This document shows, piece after piece, positions 5,310-58,341 of a stretch of 64,000 nucleotides of DNA. Made by a program: the position numbers and the translations under genes. A model generated the notes under the pieces. The model made no database searches. It saw only the letters and a list, made by a program, of their open reading frames with translations, and had not been told where the DNA came from. The stretch is from a virus, in the IMG/VR virus record IMGVR_UViG_3300037961_006825, positions 1 through 64,000 of that record. The stretch is one strand, 5' to 3'. How positions within the stretch are numbered: position 1 is the first letter of the stretch; each line of letters begins with the position of its first letter.

Positions 5310-5678
5310 GTGAGTTTAGCAAATCACCAGATTATAGATTTTTACGGTTGTGATAAAGATATTTTATCTAACTCTGATATTGTAAAAAGTTATTTTGTTA
5401 AGGCTGCTGAAATGTCTCATGCAACTATTGTATCTGAAAAGTTTCATGAATTTAGTCCATTCGGTTTAACAGGTGTATTAGTGATAACTGAAAGCCATAT
5501 CAGTATACATACTTGGCCTGAATATGGGTATGTAGCAATTGATGTATTTAGCTGCTGTGATAAATTAGATCATAAAAGATTAGTTGATGTTTTACAAACA
5601 CATTTTAAAGCAAAAAAGGTAAATTCAAAAAGTATAAAGAGAGGTAGACATGGACGAGCATTCATTCGAAAAGGATAA
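5310..5678 (+). CDS. speD: S-adenosylmethionine decarboxylase proenzyme (SpeD)
   Basis: Pyruvoyl enzyme producing decarboxylated SAM, the aminopropyl donor for spermidine. The self-cleavage region TESHISIHTWPEYG is intact: E61-S62 is the processing site, with S62 becoming the pyruvoyl group; H67 and the Cys of DVFSCC are the other usual catalytic residues. 122 residues, normal for the prokaryotic form. The start is GTG at 5310, right after the queE stop, with no in-frame ATG nearby. Followed by a second SpeD-like gene (29-base overlap) and speE. Confidence 0.93.
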   Translation: MSLANHQIIDFYGCDKDILSNSDIVKSYFVKAAEMSHATIVSEKFHEFSPFGLTGVLVITESHISIHTWPEYGYVAIDVFSCCDKLDHKRLVDVLQTHFKAKKVNSKSIKRGRHGRAFIRKG

Positions 5679-6030
5679 ATTATGGGGCATGTCAATGTCC
5701 TTAGATCTCTATAAATGTAATCCGGATACAATTCGAGATGCAGATAAGATTAAAGAATACGTAAAAGAGCTTTGTGATAATGTCATTGATATGAAAAGAT
5801 ATGGTGAATGTCAAGTAGTTCATTTCGGTGACGATCCGAAAGTTACAGGGTTTTCAATGACTCAATTAATTGAAACGTCTTTAGTATCAGGACATTTTGC
5901 TAATAATACTAATGCAGCATACTTAGATATATTTTCTTGTAAATGGTATGATATAGATAAAGTTAGAGATTTTAGTGAAAAGTTTTTTGAAGCTAAAGCA
6001 TCAATAACTAATTTAAGTAAACGACAATGA
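5650..6030 (+). CDS. Second, divergent SpeD-like protein
   Basis: 126 residues resembling the short SpeD-like proteins of T4-like marine phages. It keeps a candidate processing serine in ETSLVSGHF (S77, with H82 aligned to SpeD His67) and the Cys of YLDIFSC, but the residues flanking the cleavage serine are T-S-L rather than E-S-H. It may be a second decarboxylase or a partner of the first SpeD, as paired pro-enzyme/prozyme systems exist in other organisms; this is inference. It overlaps speD by 29 bases if started at 5650; ATGs at 5689 and 5695 would avoid the overlap. Confidence 0.82.
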   Translation: MDEHSFEKDKLWGMSMSLDLYKCNPDTIRDADKIKEYVKELCDNVIDMKRYGECQVVHFGDDPKVTGFSMTQLIETSLVSGHFANNTNAAYLDIFSCKWYDIDKVRDFSEKFFEAKASITNLSKRQ

Positions 6031-6848
6031 TAATAGATGATAGTTGGGATAAAAAGAATGGTAGTACTATTCTTATTGAAGGAGAACTTTTAGAGGAAGT
6101 TCGTTCAGAATATCAACACATTGAAGTGTATGATACAAAACGTTTTGGTAAACTTTTAAAACTTGACGGTGTTATTCAACTAACTGAATTTGATGAAGCT
6201 AATTATCATGAAATGATAGCTCATGTACCTTTACGTACTCATAATACACCTGATAATGTTTTAGTTATCGGTGGCGGTGACGGCGGGGCTGTTAGAGAAA
6301 TATTAAAACATAAACGAGTTAAAAATATTGATTTAGTAGAAATTGATAATGAAGTTATAAAAATATCAAAAAAATATTTTCCAGAAATATCATCTGGTTT
6401 AGAAGATAGTAAAGTTACTATTATGAATCAAGACGGTGCTGAGTATATTAAAAAATGTACTAATTTATATGATGTAATAATTATAGATTCTACTGATCCA
6501 TTTAGTGTAGGTGAATCGCTTTTTAAAGAAGAATTTTATTCTAATTTAAAAAAAGCATTAAAAGAAAGAGGTATAGTTATTTCTCAATCTGAAAGTATGT
6601 TTTATAATAAAGATTTAATTCAAGATATGTTTGAATTTAAACGTAAACATTTTAACGTTGTAAGATATTATTATACTTTAGTACCTACATATCCGTCAGG
6701 AACGATTGGCTTTCATTTTTGTTCAGATGGTCATTATTTACCTATTGATTTAAATGATGATTCTTTTGATAGAATGGAAGGCTTAAAATATTATAACGAA
6801 ATGATTCATAACAGTAGTTTTTTAACACCAAACGGAGTAAGTAATTAA
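6027..6848 (+). CDS. speE: Spermidine synthase (SpeE)
   Basis: Aminopropyltransferase making spermidine from putrescine and decarboxylated SAM. 273 residues, like bacterial SpeE. Diagnostic pieces: SEYQHIEVY near residue 28, LKLDGVIQLTEFDE near 44-57, the nucleotide-binding VIGGGDGG at 80-87 and the catalytic IIIDSTDPF block. ATG overlaps the previous stop (ATGATAA), showing translational coupling with the SpeD pair. No decarboxylase for putrescine formation is seen here, so putrescine would come from the host. Confidence 0.95.
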   Translation: MIIDDSWDKKNGSTILIEGELLEEVRSEYQHIEVYDTKRFGKLLKLDGVIQLTEFDEANYHEMIAHVPLRTHNTPDNVLVIGGGDGGAVREILKHKRVKNIDLVEIDNEVIKISKKYFPEISSGLEDSKVTIMNQDGAEYIKKCTNLYDVIIIDSTDPFSVGESLFKEEFYSNLKKALKERGIVISQSESMFYNKDLIQDMFEFKRKHFNVVRYYYTLVPTYPSGTIGFHFCSDGHYLPIDLNDDSFDRMEGLKYYNEMIHNSSFLTPNGVSN

Positions 6849-8197: not shown

Positions 8198-8205
8198 TAT
8201 AAATA
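8198..8205 (+). promoter_or_regulatory. Late promoter TATAAATA of the curli/cyclase operon
   Basis: Perfect T4-type late box ending 5 bases before the ATG at 8211. It is the first promoter of the operon that runs to 13991. Confidence 0.75.
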
Positions 8206-8210
8206 ATTAT

Positions 8211-8492
8211 ATGGAAGGTTTTATTAGATTTATGACCGAAGTTGGGTTTCCGATTGCAGGAGCTCTAGCTGGCGGTGTTTTCATCTTTATAATTTTAAAA
8301 TTTATATTAGAAGGTGTAAAAGGTTCTGTAGCCGGTCTTGGTGGTATGATTGGTAGTTTACAGAATAGAGTAGATGTAATGACAAATGAAATCGTTAAAA
8401 TTGATACATTAATTTCACATGCTTTTAATGTAGAACCAAACTTAGATAGAATAGCTGCTTCCGAAGGTAAAGAAGACGCAAGGAAAGATTAA
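8211..8492 (+). CDS. Small membrane protein, YvrJ-like N-terminus
   Basis: 93 residues with one strong transmembrane segment (about 10-35, VGFPIAGALAGGVFIFIILKF) and a helical tail. The GFPIA motif resembles the start of YvrJ-family small membrane proteins. The next gene looks like a diverged copy. First gene of the late curli/FecR/cyclase operon. Role unknown; a holin-like or envelope role is possible but not shown. Confidence 0.7.
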   Translation: MEGFIRFMTEVGFPIAGALAGGVFIFIILKFILEGVKGSVAGLGGMIGSLQNRVDVMTNEIVKIDTLISHAFNVEPNLDRIAASEGKEDARKD

Positions 8493-8494
8493 AA

Positions 8495-8812
8495 ATGGGT
8501 AATGCAGAAATAGATAGTATTTCAAAATTAGTAAATGATTTCGGGTTCCCGGTCATAGCAGCTATAGGTTTAGGCTATTTTGTGTATTACGTATGGCAAT
8601 GGGTAACTAAAGATATTTCTCCAGTAATAGGTGATTCAAAAAAGACGTTAATAGGTTTAATTGATAAAGTAAGAATGTTAGATAATGACATGATTCGTCT
8701 GAATATTAAACTAAAAATGATTCTTCAAGAACAGGAAAGAAAGAAGCACTTAGAAGATGATTACAATAAAAGACGAAACGAACTTGATAAACTTATTAAT
8801 GAGAGTAAATAA
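8495..8812 (+). CDS. Small membrane protein, paralogue of the preceding gene
   Basis: 105 residues. A transmembrane segment follows a GFPVIAAIGLGYF motif (residues 17-35), then a long charged coiled-coil tail. Layout and motif match the gene just upstream, 2 bases away, suggesting duplication. It precedes csgF by 5 bases, so both small membrane proteins are likely co-expressed with the curli genes. Confidence 0.7.
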   Translation: MGNAEIDSISKLVNDFGFPVIAAIGLGYFVYYVWQWVTKDISPVIGDSKKTLIGLIDKVRMLDNDMIRLNIKLKMILQEQERKKHLEDDYNKRRNELDKLINESK

Positions 8813-8817
8813 TTTTT

Positions 8818-9291
8818 ATGAAATGTATTCTAATACTTTTTATACCTATTTTATGTTTTGGAAGTGAAATAGTTTTTCAATTTAAATCTCCTACATTTAA
8901 CGGGGTAGGTTATTCAGCTCACGAATTAGCTAAAGAGCAAATTACTTTTAACAGAAAGAAAAGTATAGCAGATGAGTTAGAAGCTATAGCTTTACAAGCT
9001 CAATTAGCAGAAGATAGATCAGCTTTAAATACTTTTTTGTCAAATGTTCAAGCAAGAATTTATTCTGAATTAGCTAAGCAAGTAACTGAGCAATTATTTT
9101 CAGATGACGGAGCTGAATCAGGTACTTTTACTTTAGAAGGTAATCAAATTACTTGGTATAAATCAGCAGATGATAATATTGTATTAACTGTAGCAGATCT
9201 AATAGCTGGTACAACTACTGAAATTATTATACCAGTTGGTACATTATTTATACCGTTAGAAACAACTACAGGTACTACAGGTGATGATTAA
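8818..9291 (+). CDS. csgF: CsgF-like curli assembly protein
   Basis: 157 residues with a signal peptide (cleavage after about residue 15, FCFG-SE) and the CsgF start IVFQFKSPTFNG, the region that in characterised CsgF inserts into the CsgG pore. The middle helix and beta-rich C-terminus (TWYKSADDNIVLTVAD) also match. In bacteria CsgF sits at the CsgG secretion channel and couples secretion to nucleation of amyloid on the surface. It directly precedes csgG and overlaps it by a few bases. The C-terminal tail is Thr/Gly-rich. Confidence 0.88.
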   Translation: MKCILILFIPILCFGSEIVFQFKSPTFNGVGYSAHELAKEQITFNRKKSIADELEAIALQAQLAEDRSALNTFLSNVQARIYSELAKQVTEQLFSDDGAESGTFTLEGNQITWYKSADDNIVLTVADLIAGTTTEIIIPVGTLFIPLETTTGTTGDD

Positions 9292-10135
9292 AAATTTAAT
9301 TTTAGCATTTAGTTTATTTTTTATTGCAGGGTGTGTTTCAACACCAACTTATAATAGTCCTTATATTCAAAGACCACCTTATTTAATTGAACAAGGTGAA
9401 ATGAAAAAAATGGAAAAAGCTCCTATATATGTTGCTGTTTATAAATTTACTGATTTAACCGGTCAAAGAAAATCTACAGATAATTTTGCAAGTTTTTCTT
9501 CTGCAGTAACTCAAGGAGGTGAAGCTTGGGTAATTGAATCATTAATGGAAGCTGGTAATGGTCAATGGTTTAAAGTAGTAGAAAGAGCAGGTTTAGCTAA
9601 TCTACTAAATGAAAGAAATATAATTAAAAATACCCAAGAAGATTTTTCTGATAAACCTCCTCAAATAAAACCTTTATTATATGCAGGTATATTAATTGAA
9701 GGGGGAATTATTTCATATGAAAGTAATATTGTATCTGGCGGAGCAGGTGCTAGTTATTTAGGTATAGGTCTCTCAAAACAATACAGAAAAGATAATGTTA
9801 CAGTATCAATGAGAATGGTTAGTACTGTGTCGGGGGAAGTATTACTATCATCAACAGTAAGTAAAACTATTTTAAGTGTAGGTTTAGGTGGTACTTTATT
9901 CAAATATTTTGATACAGATAAATTAGGTTTAGGTGATTTTAATGAATATGGTGAAGCTGAAATAGGTTTTGCAAGAAATGAAAGAGTTTCAATGGCAACA
10001 AGAAAAGCTATAGATGCGTGTATAATTGATTTAGTATTACAAGGTCACGATGCTAAATTATGGAAATTATTAGAACCAATTCCAGAGCCAGAAGTTGAAC
10101 CTATTTTAGATTTGAAATCAAATAAAAGTAAGTAA
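9284..10135 (+). CDS. csgG: CsgG-like curli secretion channel lipoprotein
   Basis: CsgG forms a nonameric outer-membrane pore that secretes curli subunits. The lipoprotein signal LILAFSLFFIAGC has a clear lipobox. The body has CsgG features: IYVAVYKFTDLTGQ, a WFKVVERAGLANLLNER block, the IKPLLYAGILIEGGI region and VTVSMRMVSTVSGEVL. Length fits the family (about 277-285). I start it at ATG 9284; an in-frame GTG at 9281 is immediately upstream. It overlaps csgF and is followed by the curlin-like gene. No csgE is seen, so periplasmic gating may differ or be host-supplied. Confidence 0.93.
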   Translation: MIKNLILAFSLFFIAGCVSTPTYNSPYIQRPPYLIEQGEMKKMEKAPIYVAVYKFTDLTGQRKSTDNFASFSSAVTQGGEAWVIESLMEAGNGQWFKVVERAGLANLLNERNIIKNTQEDFSDKPPQIKPLLYAGILIEGGIISYESNIVSGGAGASYLGIGLSKQYRKDNVTVSMRMVSTVSGEVLLSSTVSKTILSVGLGGTLFKYFDTDKLGLGDFNEYGEAEIGFARNERVSMATRKAIDACIIDLVLQGHDAKLWKLLEPIPEPEVEPILDLKSNKSK

Positions 10136-10139
10136 TTTA

Positions 10140-10147
10140 TATAAATA
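10140..10147 (+). promoter_or_regulatory. Late promoter TATAAATA of the curlin-like gene
   Basis: Perfect late box ending 5 bases before ATG 10153. It would give extra, leaderless transcription of the curlin-like, FecR and cyclase genes. Confidence 0.72.
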
Positions 10148-10152
10148 CTTAT

Positions 10153-10959
10153 ATGAAGAAAATTACATTTATATCAATATTAGCGTTAGTTACCTCGTTA
10201 GCATATGCAAATAACGAGATTTACTTAGAACAGGAAGGTACAACAGGTACTTTTAATATTACTCAAATCGGTTCATCAAATAGAATCGGTCAATCAACTG
10301 ACATTTCAACAATTAAAGGTAATGATAGTATCTTTAATTTATCTCAATTAGGTAATAGTAATGCATTAGACATCAATTGGGATGGTAAAGAAACTACTTT
10401 TGATCTTTATATTGAAGGTGATGGTAATACACAAGACTTAGTAGTTACAGGGGATGGTAATGATTTTGATAATGTTATTTTAGGTAATAATAACTCTTTA
10501 ACAGTTTCAAAAGACCCAACTTCTGACGATGCTTCAAGTATTTCAGATCAAACATTTAATAATTATATTATTGGTGATAGTAACTCTTTAGATTTTTATC
10601 TTGATTCGAATGTTAATGCTGTAGTTGATATTACAATTGCAGGTAGTAGTAATGATTTAACATCAATTCAAGAAGGTGGTAACTTAGGAGTAGGTCATTC
10701 ACAAACACTTGAATTACAAGGTAGTGGTAATACAGTAGAGTTAGTACAAAGTGGTTCAGAATCTCAAACATTAGAATTAACTCACTACGGTCATGACACA
10801 ACATTTACAATTATTCAATCAGATGGAACGTATACAGCTGGTTTAGAAGGTGCTAATGTAATAAGTAATTTTGATGGAAGTTATTCAGCAGTTTATGCAC
10901 AACCTGGTTTCTTACTTGGCTCAGTACCTGAAGCAACAGCCGGTGCTGACGGTAACTAA
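10153..10959 (+). CDS. Curlin-like amyloid repeat protein
   Basis: 268 residues. Signal peptide MKKITFISILALVTSLAYA, then imperfect repeats of about 20-25 residues of the type FNITQIGSSN, FNLSQLGNSN, LELQGSGNT and VELVQSGSES, resembling the Q-x-G-x-x-N curlin repeats of CsgA/CsgB. With csgF and csgG immediately upstream, this is the likely secreted substrate. The repeats are more degenerate than in E. coli CsgA and the C-terminus (YAQPGFLLGSVPEATAGADGN) is not repeat-like, so whether it forms fibrils is unproven. Predicted extracellular. Confidence 0.82.
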   Translation: MKKITFISILALVTSLAYANNEIYLEQEGTTGTFNITQIGSSNRIGQSTDISTIKGNDSIFNLSQLGNSNALDINWDGKETTFDLYIEGDGNTQDLVVTGDGNDFDNVILGNNNSLTVSKDPTSDDASSISDQTFNNYIIGDSNSLDFYLDSNVNAVVDITIAGSSNDLTSIQEGGNLGVGHSQTLELQGSGNTVELVQSGSESQTLELTHYGHDTTFTIIQSDGTYTAGLEGANVISNFDGSYSAVYAQPGFLLGSVPEATAGADGN

Positions 10960-11872
10960 ATCTTTAATTTTATTTTTCTTCATTTGTTTAACCTCTTCTG
11001 CTGCTGGTTCAGTTGGAGAGGTTTTCCATCAAACAAGACAAGCTCAAATTACTAGAGGAGCAGATAAAATTTTAACTGAAGTAGGTACTGAAGTTGAAAT
11101 GGGTGATAAAATAGAAACATTAAAAGGTAGTATCACTATAGTATTCGTTGATAAAACTGAGGTAACTATATCAGAATATTCAAAACTTATAATAGATGAA
11201 TTTGTATATGATGCTAATAGTAATAAAGGAAAAATTAATTTAAAAGCAGGTTTAGGTAAATTAAAATATACTTCAGGTATAATGGCTAATAAAGAAAATA
11301 TTAGAATAACGACTCCTACTGCATCAGTTTCTGTTAGAGGTACTGATTTTGAAACTACTGTAAATGAAGCTGGCTCAAGTACTTTTACATTACTACCTTC
11401 AATAGCTGCTGATGGGTCAACGTATGTTGGAGTTATTGAAGTTTTTAATGCAACCGGTGCTGTTGTATTAGATACTGCTTTCGAAGTAACTACTGTATCA
11501 TCATCTTATACACCACCTACTCCTCCAGTAATTAACAGAGCAAGATTAAATGAAGCTATAGAAAAAAGAGATAATCAAAATGAAGAAATAAATGAAACCG
11601 AATCAGTAGATGATGAAGAATTAGATTTAGATAGTGAAAAAGACGCTTTAGATGAATCTTTAATACAGTTAATGGAAGAAGATAATTCAAATGGATTATT
11701 TTATGAAGAAGATGACAAAGCAATATTTGAATCTGTAGATGGAGAGAATAAAGTTAAATTAATAGTAGATAAAGATTCAAATGTCTCACTAAAATATGAT
11801 AATAAAGGAGTTATAACTGAAGGTAATCACAACAGTGGTGGTAACGTAATTATAAATATTATACAACAATGA
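10943..11872 (+). CDS. FecR-domain protein
   Basis: A signal peptide (KSLILFFFICLTSSAAG) precedes a FecR domain: GDKIETLKGSITIVFVD, TEVTISEYSKLII, the LKAGLGKLKYTSG block and ITTPTASVSVRGTDF. After it come an acidic Glu/Asp-rich region and a C-terminal VIINIIQQ segment. Secreted or periplasmic. I prefer the GTG at 10943, because it places the signal peptide at the N-terminus and reduces the overlap with the curlin-like gene to 17 bases; an in-frame ATG at 10871 would add a non-signal extension. In bacteria, FecR-domain proteins are often encoded beside CHASE2-cyclases, as here. A ligand-sensing role for the cyclase is inference. Confidence 0.8.
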   Translation: MLTVTKSLILFFFICLTSSAAGSVGEVFHQTRQAQITRGADKILTEVGTEVEMGDKIETLKGSITIVFVDKTEVTISEYSKLIIDEFVYDANSNKGKINLKAGLGKLKYTSGIMANKENIRITTPTASVSVRGTDFETTVNEAGSSTFTLLPSIAADGSTYVGVIEVFNATGAVVLDTAFEVTTVSSSYTPPTPPVINRARLNEAIEKRDNQNEEINETESVDDEELDLDSEKDALDESLIQLMEEDNSNGLFYEEDDKAIFESVDGENKVKLIVDKDSNVSLKYDNKGVITEGNHNSGGNVIINIIQQ

Positions 11873-13911
11873 AGTTAAAAAAACTAAAACCATTTTTATG
11901 GTGTATGTTTATTGCATTAATATTTTCTGCAATAAGAATATACGATCCATACCCGGTAGAAATAATTAGACTTAAAGGTTTAGATTTTTATCAAAGGCAA
12001 CAAGAAGCAAAAATATCTCAAGAAATTAGTATTGTAGAAATAGATGAAGCAAGTTTAGAGCAATATGGTCAGTGGCCTTGGAAAAGAGATATTTTATCTA
12101 ATGGTATAATAAAAGCATTTGAAAATAATGCAGCTTTAGTAGTATTACCAATATTATTTGCTGAAGAAGATAGACTAGGTGGTGATGAATTTTTTATACA
12201 AACAATACAAAATTATCCTGTAGTTACTTCGCAATCAGCTTCATTGAAAGGTAAGGGTAAAGTAGTACCAAGAGGTATATCTACTATTGGTACGGGGTTA
12301 TATAATTGGTTATATGACTATCCAGCAGGTATAGGACCGTTAGATAGTATAGGTAAATATTCAGCAGGGGTAGGTATGCTTTTAACAGCTCCAGAGTTAG
12401 ATGGCGTTGTGAGAAGGCTACCTTTACTTATACAAATTAATGGAGAACCTTACCCTACAATACCTTTAGAAGTTTTACGATTATTCGGAGGTGAACAATC
12501 TTATCAGGTAAAAGTTGATGAAATGGGAATAAATAAAGTTAGAGTATTAGGTGTAAATACTATTGATACTGACCAACATTCTCGAGTTTGGATAAACTTT
12601 AATAATGAATTTAATAAAATATCATTCATAGATAATGATTGGACAAGTTTAGAAAATAAGATTGTTGTAATTGCTTTAACAGCTGAAGGATTATCTAACT
12701 CAGTTGCAACACCAATTAAGGTTAGCAATGGTCATGAATTAAATATGCAGGTTTTACAAATGTTAATTGACGGCAATACTTTAAATAGACCAGTTGACGC
12801 AACTATAAATGAAGTTCTTATAACTTTAGGTATAAGTTTAATTTTAACTTTAGGTGCATTATTTTTATTATATTATATAAATGTATTTTTATTACTTATT
12901 ACAGTAATTTTATTACCTTATACAGGGTTTTACCTCTTTAATAACTATAATTTACTTTACGACTATACATATCCTTTATATTCAACATTTATAATTTTTA
13001 CAATAGCTATTTTCTTTAGATTTATTCATGAATTTAAAGGTAGAATGTTAATAAAAAAACAATTTGAACATTATCTTGCCCCTGAAATAGTTAAAAAACT
13101 TCAAAAGAATCCTGATATGTTAAAATTAGGAGGTGATACACAGGACTTAACTATTTTATTTTCTGATATCAGAGGGTTTACTACTATAAGTGAGCAATTC
13201 AAAGATAATCCACAAGGATTAACTGATTTAATTAATAGATATCTTACACCTATGACTCAAATAGTTATGGAATCAGGCGGTACTATTGACAAGTATATTG
13301 GAGATGCTTTAATGGCGTTTTGGAATGCACCTATACCAGAAGATAAGACGTCACATAGAATAAAAGCTATAGAAGTTGCAATAAAAATGCAATCTGAGTT
13401 GGAAAAACTTAATATACAATTAGTAGAAGAAGGTAAAAAGGAACTTGCAATAGGTATTGGTATTAATACTGGAACAGTTGTGGTAGGTAATATGGGATCT
13501 GATCAAAGATTTGATTATACTTGCTTAGGAGATGCTGTAAATTTATCAGCTAGACTTGAAGGGCAAACTAAATCATATGGCGTGGGTATATTATTAGGTG
13601 AAGAAACTATAAAACATATTGAAGATAAATTTAAATTTATTGAGTTAGATAAAATTGCAGTGAAGGGTAAAAAAGAAGGTAAATATGTATATACAGTTTT
13701 AGATAAATTTAACCATACTTTACATAATGCATTTTTAGAGTACTATAAGAATAGAAAATGGAAACAAGCTTTATTGACAATAGAGAAGATTTTTGATAAA
13801 GGTACACAGCTTGAGTTTTACTATAAAGAAATGGAAAAAAGAGTTGTTGATTTAGCTAAAAATGATCCAGGTGAAGATTGGGATCAAGTATATAGATTAA
13901 AGACAAAATGA
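11869..13911 (+). CDS. Membrane class III adenylate cyclase with CHASE2 sensor
   Basis: 680 residues: N-terminal transmembrane helix (about 8-24), periplasmic CHASE2 domain (about 30-305, with VEIDEASLEQYGQWPW and LVVLPILFAEED), three transmembrane helices (about 312-385), then a cytoplasmic class III nucleotidyl cyclase domain (about 425-600). Catalytic residues visible: metal-binding Asp in LFSDIRGFTT and in YIGDALMAFW, the specificity lysine in TIDKYIGD, and Asn/Arg in DAVNLSARLEG. The active site looks complete and most like bacterial adenylate cyclases. ATG overlaps the FecR stop (ATGA). A membrane cyclase in a phage is highly unusual. cAMP rather than cGMP as product is inferred from motif type. 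Confidence 0.93.
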   Translation: MKLKKLKPFLWCMFIALIFSAIRIYDPYPVEIIRLKGLDFYQRQQEAKISQEISIVEIDEASLEQYGQWPWKRDILSNGIIKAFENNAALVVLPILFAEEDRLGGDEFFIQTIQNYPVVTSQSASLKGKGKVVPRGISTIGTGLYNWLYDYPAGIGPLDSIGKYSAGVGMLLTAPELDGVVRRLPLLIQINGEPYPTIPLEVLRLFGGEQSYQVKVDEMGINKVRVLGVNTIDTDQHSRVWINFNNEFNKISFIDNDWTSLENKIVVIALTAEGLSNSVATPIKVSNGHELNMQVLQMLIDGNTLNRPVDATINEVLITLGISLILTLGALFLLYYINVFLLLITVILLPYTGFYLFNNYNLLYDYTYPLYSTFIIFTIAIFFRFIHEFKGRMLIKKQFEHYLAPEIVKKLQKNPDMLKLGGDTQDLTILFSDIRGFTTISEQFKDNPQGLTDLINRYLTPMTQIVMESGGTIDKYIGDALMAFWNAPIPEDKTSHRIKAIEVAIKMQSELEKLNIQLVEEGKKELAIGIGINTGTVVVGNMGSDQRFDYTCLGDAVNLSARLEGQTKSYGVGILLGEETIKHIEDKFKFIELDKIAVKGKKEGKYVYTVLDKFNHTLHNAFLEYYKNRKWKQALLTIEKIFDKGTQLEFYYKEMEKRVVDLAKNDPGEDWDQVYRLKTK

Positions 13912-13991
13912 TGAAGATAGTTTTACTTTTAGGAATTTTTGCATTAAGTTTTATTGTTATTTTTATAAGCGAAAAATCTAATAAAAATTAA
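13908..13991 (+). CDS. 27-residue membrane peptide
   Basis: Tiny ORF whose ATG overlaps the cyclase stop (ATGATGA). It encodes MMKIVLLLGIFALSFIVIF followed by a short charged tail, i.e. one transmembrane helix. Tight coupling and hydrophobicity suggest a real micropeptide, possibly a cyclase partner. It converges with the next gene, overlapping by 4 bases. Confidence 0.5.
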   Translation: MMKIVLLLGIFALSFIVIFISEKSNKN

Positions 13992-15652: not shown

Positions 15653-15849
15653 TTAACTTTCAAACATATTTCGAAAATTATGCTGACGGTAAACGTAAAG
15701 GTAAAAGTAGACCTGGTAGAGTTAAGCGCGCTGGTGCTAGCTGTAAAGGGTCAGTATCTGAACTAAGACGTAAAGCTAAAAAATATGGTGGTGAAAAAGG
15801 TAAGATGTATCATTGGTGTGCTAATATGAAAGGTGGTAAAAAGAAATGA
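15649..15849 (+). CDS. Small basic protein, two cysteines
   Basis: 66 residues, about one third Lys/Arg. Motifs GKSRPGRVKRAGASC and MYHWCANMK are of a type I associate with conserved marine T4-like phage proteins. N-terminus MINFQTYFENYADG resembles neighbouring leaders. Likely DNA-binding or virion internal; not proven. Overlaps the genes on both sides by 4 bases. Confidence 0.7.
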   Translation: MINFQTYFENYADGKRKGKSRPGRVKRAGASCKGSVSELRRKAKKYGGEKGKMYHWCANMKGGKKK

Positions 15850-16469
15850 GTTACGATTCAGTTACAGAATTATTTTTAGAAAAATATGAAGGTATTAAAC
15901 CAGTTAAATTACCTTATGCGCTTGATGCTTTAGAGCCTTATATAGATGCTGAAACGATGAATTTACATTTTAATAAACACTATAAAGGTTACGTTAAAAA
16001 ATTAAATGCAGCTTTACCAGCTACAAATAAACAAGATTTATTATCAATTATTAAAAAAGCTAAATCTAAAAAAGATGCTATTCGTAACAATGCTGGCGGT
16101 GCTTATAATCATCAGTTATTTTGGTTTATGATGTCTCCAGATAGAAAACCTATCTCAGGTGAAATAAAAGATCTTATTGAAAAACAATATAAAAGTTTCG
16201 ATAACTTTAAAGCTAAATTCGTTGAAGAAGCTTTAGCCCATTTCGGGTCAGGTTGGTTATGGTTAGTTAAAAAAGGAAATAAACTTGAAATGATATCTAC
16301 AGATAATCAAGATAATCCTTTAATGACTTCTGATGTAACTATCCTTTTAGGAGTAGATGTTTGGGAGCATGCTTATTACAAAAAGTATGGACCAAATAGA
16401 GAAAAATATCTTAAGCAATTTTTAAAAATTGTAAATTGGGATTATTGTAATCAGCAATTAACTCAATAA
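15846..16469 (+). CDS. Superoxide dismutase, Mn-type
   Basis: Fe/Mn-family superoxide dismutase, disproportionating superoxide to H2O2 and O2. All four metal ligands are visible: H41 (NLHFNKH), H89 (GGAYNHQLFW), D171 and H175 (GVDVWEHAYY). G85 and Q155 (STDNQDNPLM) are at the positions that distinguish Mn from Fe enzymes, favouring Mn. The core begins at residue 20 (VKLPYALDALEPYIDAETM); residues 1-19 (MSYDSVTELFLEKYEG...) are an extra leader. Last gene of the Nudix operon, overlapping by 4 bases. Phage-borne SODs are rare. Cytoplasmic or packaged (inference). Confidence 0.95.
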   Translation: MSYDSVTELFLEKYEGIKPVKLPYALDALEPYIDAETMNLHFNKHYKGYVKKLNAALPATNKQDLLSIIKKAKSKKDAIRNNAGGAYNHQLFWFMMSPDRKPISGEIKDLIEKQYKSFDNFKAKFVEEALAHFGSGWLWLVKKGNKLEMISTDNQDNPLMTSDVTILLGVDVWEHAYYKKYGPNREKYLKQFLKIVNWDYCNQQLTQ

Positions 16470-40759: not shown

Positions 40760-40780
40760 AGTTTATTTTCCTTTTACGGT

Positions 40781-40860
40781 GCGTTCCTTCCCCTACCCCA
40801 TATTTCTTTCATAGAACTATGTACAGAAAATAGGGTACTTCCGCCCTTTCGGGTGAACGA
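40781..40860 (-). promoter_or_regulatory. Glutamine-type riboswitch (glnA/downstream-peptide RNA)
   Basis: Read on the minus strand: CGTTCACCC, a GAAA-capped CCC/GGG hairpin, the conserved CGGAAGTA, a long stem (ACCCTATTTTCT with AGAAATATGGGGT, one bulge), then AGGGGAAGGAACGC closing P1 (CGTTC with GAACG). Order and conserved blocks match the glnA/downstream-peptide RNA family that binds L-glutamine. It lies 21 bases upstream of the YRG-peptide ATG, so glutamine would control that gene. Confidence 0.85.
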
Positions 40861-40903
40861 GTTATATATATATTTATTATTTTAATATAGTTCCTCAAGT
40901 TCT

Positions 40904-55292: not shown

Positions 55293-58200
55293 TTAAACAC
55301 TTATCTTTAAAGTTGCACCATCTCTATATACCACTCCTGGTACACCTGGATCTGATGTTGGTAAGGCTGCTGCACTTAAGTATAACGTTTGAGCGTGTAA
55401 CATATTAGCTGATACCGATGTTATATGTTCACCTCCAGCAATAACCGTATTACAATGTTCACCACCACCTCCGCTGCCACTACCTAATATATTATTACAT
55501 TTACCACCTAATACAGCAGAACTATTAATATAGTCTTGTATACAATTTTTAAATCCACCTAATATAGTTGAATATGATGTATTACCATTACCTACACCTC
55601 TACCTATTGAACTGCAATATCCTCCTATAATAGAAGAATAATCAGACGCTTCTCCAAGGCAGTTAAATCCACCTGATGCAACTTGCCCTCTTGCAAGACA
55701 TGTTTGATTTTGTATACCACCTAATACTACATTATCTTGGCCATTAGCTGTATTAAATGAACCAGCTAGTACAGCATTGTTAAATCCAAACGTATTAATA
55801 TTATTAAATTCACCTGCTAATATAGCAGAGTTTTTAGATTCAATCGTATCAATCCGGTTAAAAAATCCTCCTAGAACTGTTGACCCTGACGATGCAACAA
55901 CATTACTTGAACCACCTACTATAACTGAATGATTTCCAAAAGCTGAATTGTCTTTACCGTTTATAACTACGTTAAAACTATCTCCTGCGCTTACACCGAC
56001 GATGTTATTTGAACCATTACCTATTAAACCACAATTACCTTTTACAGTATTATTAAATCCTCCTAATATAATACTATGCTCACCATTAGCAATACCTCTT
56101 TGACCTATAGTGTTTCCACGACCAGCTAAAATTGCTGAATCAGTAGCGCCATCAGTAATAATACCACTAATAGCATTAACAATAGTGCCATTAAATGCAC
56201 CTGATAAGATTTGATTACCTCTACCACCACCTATGAACGATCCAGATGCTGCAATATAATTTGTAAAACCTGCACCGATAATTGAGTCATTAACTACGTC
56301 TTGCCCTGGCCCATCTATTACACTATATATTTCATTTTTACATCCTACTAATATAGCATTGCTATTACCGCAAATTATATTACATTCACCACCGCCCATA
56401 AAGTTGAACGTGCCCATTTGATAAGTACCACCTGGTGGACATTTTATAGGTGTAATACAGTTTTTTAACCCTCCTGTAATAGTTGATTCGGTGGCCATTA
56501 TTTGATTTTGTTTACCACCTCCAATAAATGAATATTCTATATTACAATTATCACTGTTACATATTTTATTTGCAAAACCTCCACCAATAGTATTACCATA
56601 ATTTGATGTACAAGCACCATCCAATATTGTATTAGTTGATCCAATACAATTATCAAAACCACCACCTATAAAGCTAACATCACCGTAAATACAATTTCTT
56701 ATACCGGATGCGACTGTACTTGCACCGTTATAGCCTTTGACCATATTATTGTAACCTGATCCTATAAAGTTAAAGTGACCAGAACATATTTCATTACTAC
56801 AACCTGCTACTATGGCATTTCCAGTTGCTCTTGGAAATACTCCAATAAGACCTCGAGTACCACACATTATATTTCCAGTACCGCCGCCGATAAATGTATA
56901 ATCACCTCTAGAAGTATTATTAATACCACCTCCGATAAATGAATCTTGACCGCTTATACTATTACATTTACCACCTGCAATTGTTCCCCCACATGTATCA
57001 GGGCCACCAAATATAGTTCCACTTACCCCTGATATAATAGTACCGTCTGGGGCATCAACTACTCCACTTACCCCTCCTACAATTGTACCATCAGCACCTG
57101 CAGATGCAATAACATTAAATGTTCCTCCACCAATATTACCACCAGATGCATGGATTGTATTATTTTGACCGCCTACTATACTAGCTCCAGATTCTCCTCC
57201 TGATAACCCAGGGTATGCTGATACGTTTATAGTATTTGTATCTGAACCAACTACTAATTCACCACCTGATATAGTAGTTGAACCTGATGTACCGTCTCCC
57301 GAAACTACAACCGTTGCTGTTGTACCTGAAGGTGATGTTACTACAACAGTACCTGGATCTGTTAAATCTATACCTATATTAGCACTAGCAGTTCCTGAAG
57401 TACTATCTCCAAAACCTAAATTACCACCTGATAAAAATACATCATTACCACCGGTATTACCTCCTGAAACTATTACCGTATTAGAAGATATTGTAACGAA
57501 ATCAGTTTGTAAGGATCCTCCGGATAAAGTAACATTACCTATACCAGAATTACCTCCGCTAATAAACACATTATTAGATGAAATAGTAACTAAATCTGTC
57601 TGTAAAGAGCCTCCTGATAAAATTACATTACCAAAATCATTATTATTACCACCAGAAACAATAACTGTATTAGATGAAATCGTTACGTTATCTGTTTGCA
57701 ATGCACCACCTGATAAAACAACATTACCAAAATTATTTGTATTACCACCTGAAACAAAAATAGTGTTAGATGATACTGTTACGTTATCTGTTTGTAATGC
57801 CCCGCCCGATAAAACTACGTTACCTGCATTTGAAAACCCGTCTGCGCTAACTACTACACAAAATGAAGAAATAGTTACGCCATCTGTTTTTAATGCTCCG
57901 CCAGATAAAACTACATTACCAAAATCGTTTGTATTACCACCTGAAATAACAACAGTATTAGATGAAACTGTTACGTTATCTGTTTGTAAAGAGCCACCCG
58001 ACAGAACTACATTACCAAAATCGTTTGTATTGCCACCTGAAATAACAACAGTATTAGATGAAATCGTCACGTTATCAGTTTGTAGGGAGCCACCTGATAA
58101 AACTACATTACCAAAATCGTTTGTATTACCACCTGAAACGGTAACTGCCTCTGGTAATAAAGTAACTACACTTTGACCATTTGATAAACTAACGGAAACA

Positions 58201-58334
58201 GATTCACCAAAGAACATGTTACCTTCATTTAAATTAGCTACGTTACTTATAAAATTGAAAAAATCCCCTTCTGTGGGTACTTTTCCGGTAAGAAACAATG
58301 CTGATAAATTGTTGCGAGTATAAGTGGTGCTCAT
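55293..58334 (-). CDS. Giant repetitive fiber protein with YadA-head-like repeats
   Basis: 1013 residues. Residues 1-60: virion-attachment region. Residues 60-300: about eight 32-residue Gly/Asn/Ser repeats (SSNTVVISGGNTNDFGNVVLSGG). Residues 330-960: many short IGGG-x2-N-x-I type repeats (for example SFIGGGFDNCIG) resembling the left-handed beta-roll of YadA/Hep_Hag adhesin heads, unusually rich in Cys. The C-terminal LPTSDPGVPGVVYRDGATLKIS motif closes many marine phage structural proteins. Probably a trimeric adhesin-like tail fiber. Confidence 0.85.
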   Translation of the reverse strand: MSTTYTRNNLSALFLTGKVPTEGDFFNFISNVANLNEGNMFFGESVSVSLSNGQSVVTLLPEAVTVSGGNTNDFGNVVLSGGSLQTDNVTISSNTVVISGGNTNDFGNVVLSGGSLQTDNVTVSSNTVVISGGNTNDFGNVVLSGGALKTDGVTISSFCVVVSADGFSNAGNVVLSGGALQTDNVTVSSNTIFVSGGNTNNFGNVVLSGGALQTDNVTISSNTVIVSGGNNNDFGNVILSGGSLQTDLVTISSNNVFISGGNSGIGNVTLSGGSLQTDFVTISSNTVIVSGGNTGGNDVFLSGGNLGFGDSTSGTASANIGIDLTDPGTVVVTSPSGTTATVVVSGDGTSGSTTISGGELVVGSDTNTINVSAYPGLSGGESGASIVGGQNNTIHASGGNIGGGTFNVIASAGADGTIVGGVSGVVDAPDGTIISGVSGTIFGGPDTCGGTIAGGKCNSISGQDSFIGGGINNTSRGDYTFIGGGTGNIMCGTRGLIGVFPRATGNAIVAGCSNEICSGHFNFIGSGYNNMVKGYNGASTVASGIRNCIYGDVSFIGGGFDNCIGSTNTILDGACTSNYGNTIGGGFANKICNSDNCNIEYSFIGGGKQNQIMATESTITGGLKNCITPIKCPPGGTYQMGTFNFMGGGECNIICGNSNAILVGCKNEIYSVIDGPGQDVVNDSIIGAGFTNYIAASGSFIGGGRGNQILSGAFNGTIVNAISGIITDGATDSAILAGRGNTIGQRGIANGEHSIILGGFNNTVKGNCGLIGNGSNNIVGVSAGDSFNVVINGKDNSAFGNHSVIVGGSSNVVASSGSTVLGGFFNRIDTIESKNSAILAGEFNNINTFGFNNAVLAGSFNTANGQDNVVLGGIQNQTCLARGQVASGGFNCLGEASDYSSIIGGYCSSIGRGVGNGNTSYSTILGGFKNCIQDYINSSAVLGGKCNNILGSGSGGGGEHCNTVIAGGEHITSVSANMLHAQTLYLSAAALPTSDPGVPGVVYRDGATLKISV
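57430..58150 (-). repeat. 96-bp tandem repeats in fiber gene
   Basis: About 7-8 imperfect direct repeats of 96 bases (32 codons) encode the SGGNTNDFGNVVLSGG(S/A)LQTDNVTISSNTVV unit type; adjacent copies at 57885-58150 are nearly identical. They favour recombination and length variation. Confidence 0.85.
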
Positions 58335-58341
58335 ATATCAA

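Follow-up and report, generated by a model that had tools for sequence, protein, structure and literature searches.

A phage curli locus encoding a putative FecR-curlin hybrid and a predicted CHASE2-adenylate cyclase

The window analyzed here is a stretch of 64,000 nucleotides of viral DNA (positions 1 to 64,000 of IMG/VR record IMGVR_UViG_3300037961_006825), and it carries on its plus strand, between positions 8211 and 13911, a tightly packed series of genes for two small membrane proteins, CsgF, CsgG, a curlin-repeat protein, a FecR-domain protein and a CHASE2-adenylate cyclase. An earlier note on this DNA, made from the letters alone, had described such an operon, and its gene calls and gene order proved sound, with Pfam matches for CsgF, CsgG, FecR, CHASE2 and the cyclase; the start/stop overlaps that it listed (9284/9291, 10943/10959, 11869/11872 and 13908/13911) are likewise all correct. 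Most genes of the locus match, over much of their length, PHROGs phage families of unknown function, and the cluster is thus not private to this phage.

Two components of the curli secretion apparatus are readily recognized. CsgF (8818-9291; 157 amino acids (aa)) has a signal peptide and matches PF10614 (2.5e-15) and phrog_35372, and the CsgG outer-membrane secretion lipoprotein (9284-10135; 283 aa from the ATG at 9284) matches PF03783 (1.3e-46) and contains a lipobox (..FIAGC), with Cys18 conserved in an alignment of CsgG homologues. No gene for CsgC, CsgD or CsgE was found with Pfam at 8.2-14 kb, and these genes are missing in pelagiphages too (PMC9599517).

Downstream of csgG is the gene for the curlin-repeat protein (10153-10959; 268 aa), which has a signal peptide and a predicted beta-solenoid-like strand repeat. 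Pfam, including the curlin repeats of PF07012, gave no match in this protein, and NCBIfam gave weak matches to CsgB (5.7e-4) and CsgA (4.6e-3); PF07012 does match the Melnitz orthologues. The count for G..N spacing is 9, versus 2.9 in shuffles (maximum 8 of 2000), and an AlphaFold2 (AF2) model displays regular strands every ~11 residues (predicted local distance difference test (pLDDT) 71), for which Foldseek returned no significant match. The protein thus appears curlin-like, and fibre formation by it is predicted from sequence and model. A long open reading frame (ORF) elsewhere in the window (55296-58337, minus strand) contains many G..N-type repeats according to a curlin-motif count and is probably a structural or fibre protein.

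The last large gene (11869-13911) encodes a protein of 680 aa in which the CHASE2 domain (PF05226, residues 21-329, E 1.3e-37) resides between an N-terminal transmembrane (TM) helix and the TM bundle preceding the cyclase domain (Pfam, 6e-24). The class III active site is complete, as had been proposed: the two metal Asp residues, the substrate Lys and the Thr, Asn and Arg are all present (D433, K475, D479, T551, N558 and R562), so that the protein has the residues expected of a class III adenylate cyclase and is predicted to produce cyclic AMP (cAMP). These residues are also kept in relatives, with D433, K475, D479 and R562 found in 84 of 84 phage cyclases and N558 in 80 of 84. Cyclases of the Melnitz type (L003, L038, L039 and L074) have Ser in place of N558 and Asp instead of T551. 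In a phylogenetic tree the phage cyclases group together, separately from 45 bacterial ones (support 100). Neither the window's record nor 17 other phage records yielded a protein that binds cyclic nucleotide monophosphates (cNMPs), and a literature search did not find a published cAMP receptor for SAR11.

Scans of IMG/VR with the cyclase, FecR and CsgG yielded 234 loci. Those from the FecR and CsgG scans included 38 non-redundant csgG loci with sufficient flanks (6 kb or more upstream, 8.5 kb or more downstream), which represent the relatives nearest to the window rather than a survey of all phage curli. Each of the 38 contains csgF, a curlin gene, fecR and the cyclase gene, the commonest order being csgF-csgG-curlin-fecR-(curlin)-adenylate cyclase (AC). 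The earlier note had asked whether the order csgF-csgG-curlin-FecR-CHASE2 is conserved, and had allowed that FecR and the cyclase might be absent from relatives; the full set of genes is present in every locus and mostly in that order, and FecR and the cyclase belong with phage curli in a strongly conserved module. Ratios of nonsynonymous to synonymous substitution (dN/dS) between close relatives are 0.06-0.25, with synonymous sites partly saturated. This invariable co-occurrence was not found in the earlier literature.

The module itself is known. Curli genes have been reported in pelagimyophages (PMC7029224), and a role in lysis has been proposed for the curli of Melnitz (PMC9004378). In 2022, the arrangement csgF-csgG-CsgA/B-FecR-(CsgA/B)-adenylate cyclase was described in podo- and myophages as a type VIII secretion system (T8SS) module (PMC9599517), and the view of the earlier note that an enzyme of this kind linked to phage curli was not described must therefore be given up. 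The window locus has the composition of that module, in that csgF, csgG and the curlin gene are adjacent and are followed by FecR and the cyclase, and the same cluster is present in Pelagibacter phage HTVC008M (KC465899) and Methylophilales phage Melnitz (MZ577097), with the same gene order and the same small membrane proteins in front. The window differs from the pelagiphage module in having no second curlin gene between FecR and AC, and HTVC008M is a distant relation of the window phage (15 of 58 ORFs longer than 150 aa match, and the major capsid proteins share ~30% identity). CHASE2 is unnamed in all three papers (PMC7029224, PMC9004378, PMC9599517), and the module description in PMC9599517 gives neither this domain nor the C-terminal kernel of FecR that is considered below.

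For Melnitz and the pelagimyophages it has been proposed that the CsgG pore functions in uptake or in the triggering of lysis (PMC9004378, PMC7029224), in which case the fibre would be secondary, and FecR and the cyclase would gate or time the pore. The missing CsgE gate and the lack of observed clumping are in keeping with this idea; however, a curlin gene, which a pore alone would not need, occurs in all 38 complete loci tested and is under purifying selection, and we consider this explanation improbable.

Similar comparisons can be extended to bacteria, where the two halves of the module were found separately. The bacterial set comprised the 80 CHASE2-cyclase genes nearest to the phage cyclase, mostly alphaproteobacterial; a FecR-domain gene lies in the flank of 30 of them, within 100 bp or overlapping in 17, and csgF, csgG or curlin genes lie near none (0/80). 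Conversely, neither FecR nor a cyclase was found within ~10 kb of five true alphaproteobacterial csgG loci that have csgF and curlins (0/5). In the loci examined, the phage module thus unites two modules that are separate in bacteria, and this separation, as counted here, was not found in the earlier literature, in which the occurrence of FecR and AC outside bacterial curli operons (PMC9599517) and the clustering of Campylobacterota CHASE2-ACs with a FecR outer-membrane protein (PMC9239204) had been noted. Bacterial FecR and CHASE2-AC pairs resemble those of the window in being adjoining genes of the same architecture, but have no curli genes near them, and their FecR is often fused to cadherin, RTX or FG-GAP regions. 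The alphaproteobacterial curli operons (L348-L352) and csgBAC/csgDEFG of E. coli have CsgF, CsgG and curlins in common with the window but lack FecR and the cyclase; in E. coli, CsgC, CsgD and CsgE are also present.

The FecR-domain gene (10943-11872) occupies the space between the curlin and cyclase genes. Its best start is the GTG at 10943, which gives a protein of 309 aa with a signal peptide, a FecR domain (Pfam, 1.1e-10) and C-terminal strands ending in INIIQQ. This architecture differs from that of FecI/FecR anti-sigma regulators, which have a cytoplasmic anti-sigma part and a TM helix, and no sigma factor or TonB receptor gene lies next to fecR in the window. Among phage FecRs from curli loci, 139 of 140 non-redundant proteins end in phi-x-phi-x-Q followed by 0-3 residues (examples are ITINQTN, VTIIQIN, INIIQQ and ITIIQTD), and the 60-100 residues preceding this kernel are widely variable. 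The proteins were gathered by FecR-domain, CsgG or cyclase patterns and not by their C-termini, and nine further FecRs with the kernel are situated at contig ends, where csg genes would be beyond view. In an alignment of 62 FecR sequences, conservation is 90% or higher at I304, I306 and Q308. As controls, the same pattern was found in 6 of 1531 other phage ORFs, in none of 30 bacterial FecRs beside CHASE2-ACs and in 1.8% of shuffled C-termini, and a looser version was found in csgG (5/184) and csgF (7/186). The kernel is not accounted for by overlap with the cyclase gene, which in the window amounts to 4 nt.

The terminal pattern is that of the published curlin kernel, N-x-phi-x-phi-x-Q (PMC10192328), with which several bacterial curlins end; alphaproteobacterial curlins share the terminal kernel of the phage FecRs, as does E. 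coli CsgB, which ends IRVTQR. A position-specific scoring matrix (PSSM) built from curlin strands only placed 136 of 140 FecR C-termini above the 99th percentile of background (p ~1e-85, an optimistic value since the sequences are related), and paired kernels 14-30 residues apart were present in 94/140 phage FecRs versus 0/1531 background ORFs. Pfam found no curlin repeats in the C-terminal pieces of FecR, and so the case is founded on the kernel motif, the curlin-trained PSSM and conservation rather than on a domain hit. The phage FecR is best described as a putative FecR-curlin hybrid, a sensor domain ending in an amyloid piece, which suggests a link between fibre and enzyme. A physical connection of this kind had been supposed in the earlier note, and the kernel, which we have not found described in the literature, now lends it indirect support at the sequence level.

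An AF2 model of FecR (62 sequences, mean pLDDT 86) contains a signal helix, a beta-structured FecR domain, a helix, a disordered linker (residues 225-250) and strands that continue to the end. The top Foldseek match is the cell-surface signalling domain of PupR (prob 1.00, E 1.8e-3), which would fit a periplasmic signalling role for FecR. Only the FecR domain finds relatives, the C-terminal part of the model being without one in the PDB.

The kernel is absent (0/4) from the FecRs of phages in which FecR and cyclase genes occur with no csgG anywhere in the record. The three complete FecRs of these phages are 1234-1471 aa in length and contain cadherin or RTX regions; the loci concerned are L053:1125-10830, L055:1492-10935, L071:1709-10905 and L054, and the records could be fragments, the largest extending to 172 kb without csgG. 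In such phages, cyclases of the same family may be coupled to a second surface protein. They also bear on the notion that the cyclase is the main effector, reprogramming the host through host CRP, with curli and FecR serving only as its sensor of cell-cell contact. The retention of the cyclase by phages of the cadherin/RTX type, which have no curli, agrees with this notion, as does its presence in 16 of 16 large phage records; it would depend on a CRP-like receptor in the host, however, and we think it very improbable.

Because the terminal kernel of FecR resembles that of CsgB, FecR could instead be the phage CsgB, a CsgG-exported nucleator or fibre-end adhesin, while the cyclase senses envelope or membrane stress or a small ligand and was carried along as part of a FecR+AC piece. 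Contacts in E. coli run from CsgG through CsgF and CsgB to CsgA, the C-terminal part of CsgF binding CsgB (PMC6957492) rather than CsgA, and the last CsgB repeat has been implicated in binding CsgF (PMC10192328). The cyclase gene can lie on the opposite strand, and a Sinorhizobium meliloti FecR is unnecessary for perception (PMC5498481), both of which favour this explanation. On the other hand, the FecR domain and CHASE2-AC are paired in curli-less bacteria and in csg-less phages, which argues that they form a functional pair, and we regard the CsgB explanation as possible but unlikely.

The reading that we favour, with confidence that is evenly balanced, combines a curli module with a bacterial-type FecR-CHASE2 signalling pair, such that the FecR-curlin hybrid docks on the fibre or pore and reports to CHASE2. 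Late in infection, CsgG and CsgF would export the curlin protein, which would assemble into a fibre at the surface, and FecR would reach the periplasm by way of its signal peptide. Its C-terminal curlin strands could then dock either on the subunit of the fibre or, at the pore, on CsgF, in a place like that of CsgB in E. coli, and the docked protein would bring its FecR domain before CHASE2 in the periplasm. In S. meliloti, CyaD1 is constitutively active once CHASE2 has been removed (PMC5498481), and CHASE2 can thus be a brake that is relieved by a partner. The phage cyclase might in this way report the status of curli assembly, with control in either direction (on or off). The phages examined showed no cNMP-binding protein of their own, so the resulting cAMP would presumably act on a host cAMP receptor; conceivable benefits include superinfection exclusion, the holding of sibling cells and the timing of lysis.

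Several observations weigh against this docking scheme. The AF2 model shows no clear curlin solenoid at the C-terminus of FecR, whose kernel could serve as a sorting tag for CsgG or CsgF instead of contacting the fibre. The cyclase gene is divergent or upstream in several loci, so that it is not always co-transcribed with fecR; the Melnitz-type cyclases may be weak, altered or inactive; and no clumping was seen in OM43 cultures after infection (PMC9004378). Signal perception in S. meliloti did not require SMc02177, a FecR protein whose locus number is beside that of cyaD1 (PMC5498481).

More generally, and with somewhat less than even confidence, the phage FecR may be an adaptor, with its signalling domain at one end and an amyloid strand at the other, that relays how far a secreted functional amyloid has been assembled, across the periplasm, to the CHASE2 cyclase and has a swappable C-terminus, curlin in curli phages and cadherin/RTX in csg-less phages and bacteria. 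If so, FecR and CHASE2 would constitute a general readout for whichever surface structure FecR carries. The presence of curli in phages of very abundant marine bacteria has been called a mystery, for which several purposes compete but no mechanism is offered; a near-invariant amyloid strand in FecR that tracks the curli genes hints that fibre and cyclase are physically connected and suggests a possible role for the FecR-domain partners of bacterial CHASE2 cyclases.

Upstream of csgF are the two small proteins (8211-8492 and 8495-8812), which belong to the same family (phrog_18771), the first displaying by eye one predicted TM helix and a coiled coil. By position, we infer that they are the "HK" genes of PMC9599517. 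The published label of histidine kinase is not supported for these proteins: they are ~100 aa long and their 243 homologues are all ≤200 aa, Pfam and NCBIfam give no HisKA or HATPase match, and no His is conserved (the best His column is filled in ≤44 of 243 homologues). At the other end of the locus, the ORF for the 27-aa hydrophobic peptide that the earlier note counted as a member of the operon does exist (13908-13991, plus strand), but nothing resembling it is found behind the cyclase of close relatives, and its membership is doubtful.

A T4-type late-promoter box, TATAAATA, is present on the plus strand at 8198-8205, 5 nt ahead of the ATG with which the first gene begins, and a second occurs at 10140-10147 (plus strand), where the curlin gene has its ATG at the same distance. 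Enrichment of the box as a late-promoter word was rejected, because its total count in the window corresponds to chance (23 seen versus 26 expected), and the only informative feature is its distance to ATG: an ATG lies 5-8 nt beyond the box 11 times for the 23 boxes, versus 0-5 times for four control words. The spacing is exactly 5 nt at 5 sites and 7-8 nt at 6 sites (among them 8198, 10140, 14865, 54761 and, on the minus strand, 54254), and HTVC008M has the same 5-nt peak (5 of 21 boxes). Such short spacing suggests leaderless late mRNAs.

Elsewhere in the window, two successive ORFs at 5650-6848 that by eye resemble S-adenosylmethionine decarboxylase (the first) and spermidine synthase (the second) form a possible phage polyamine pathway, and the ORF at 15846-16469 resembles, also by eye, an iron/manganese superoxide dismutase. 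On the minus strand, a glutamine riboswitch aptamer resides at 40778-40861 (Rfam RF01739, 42.3 bits).

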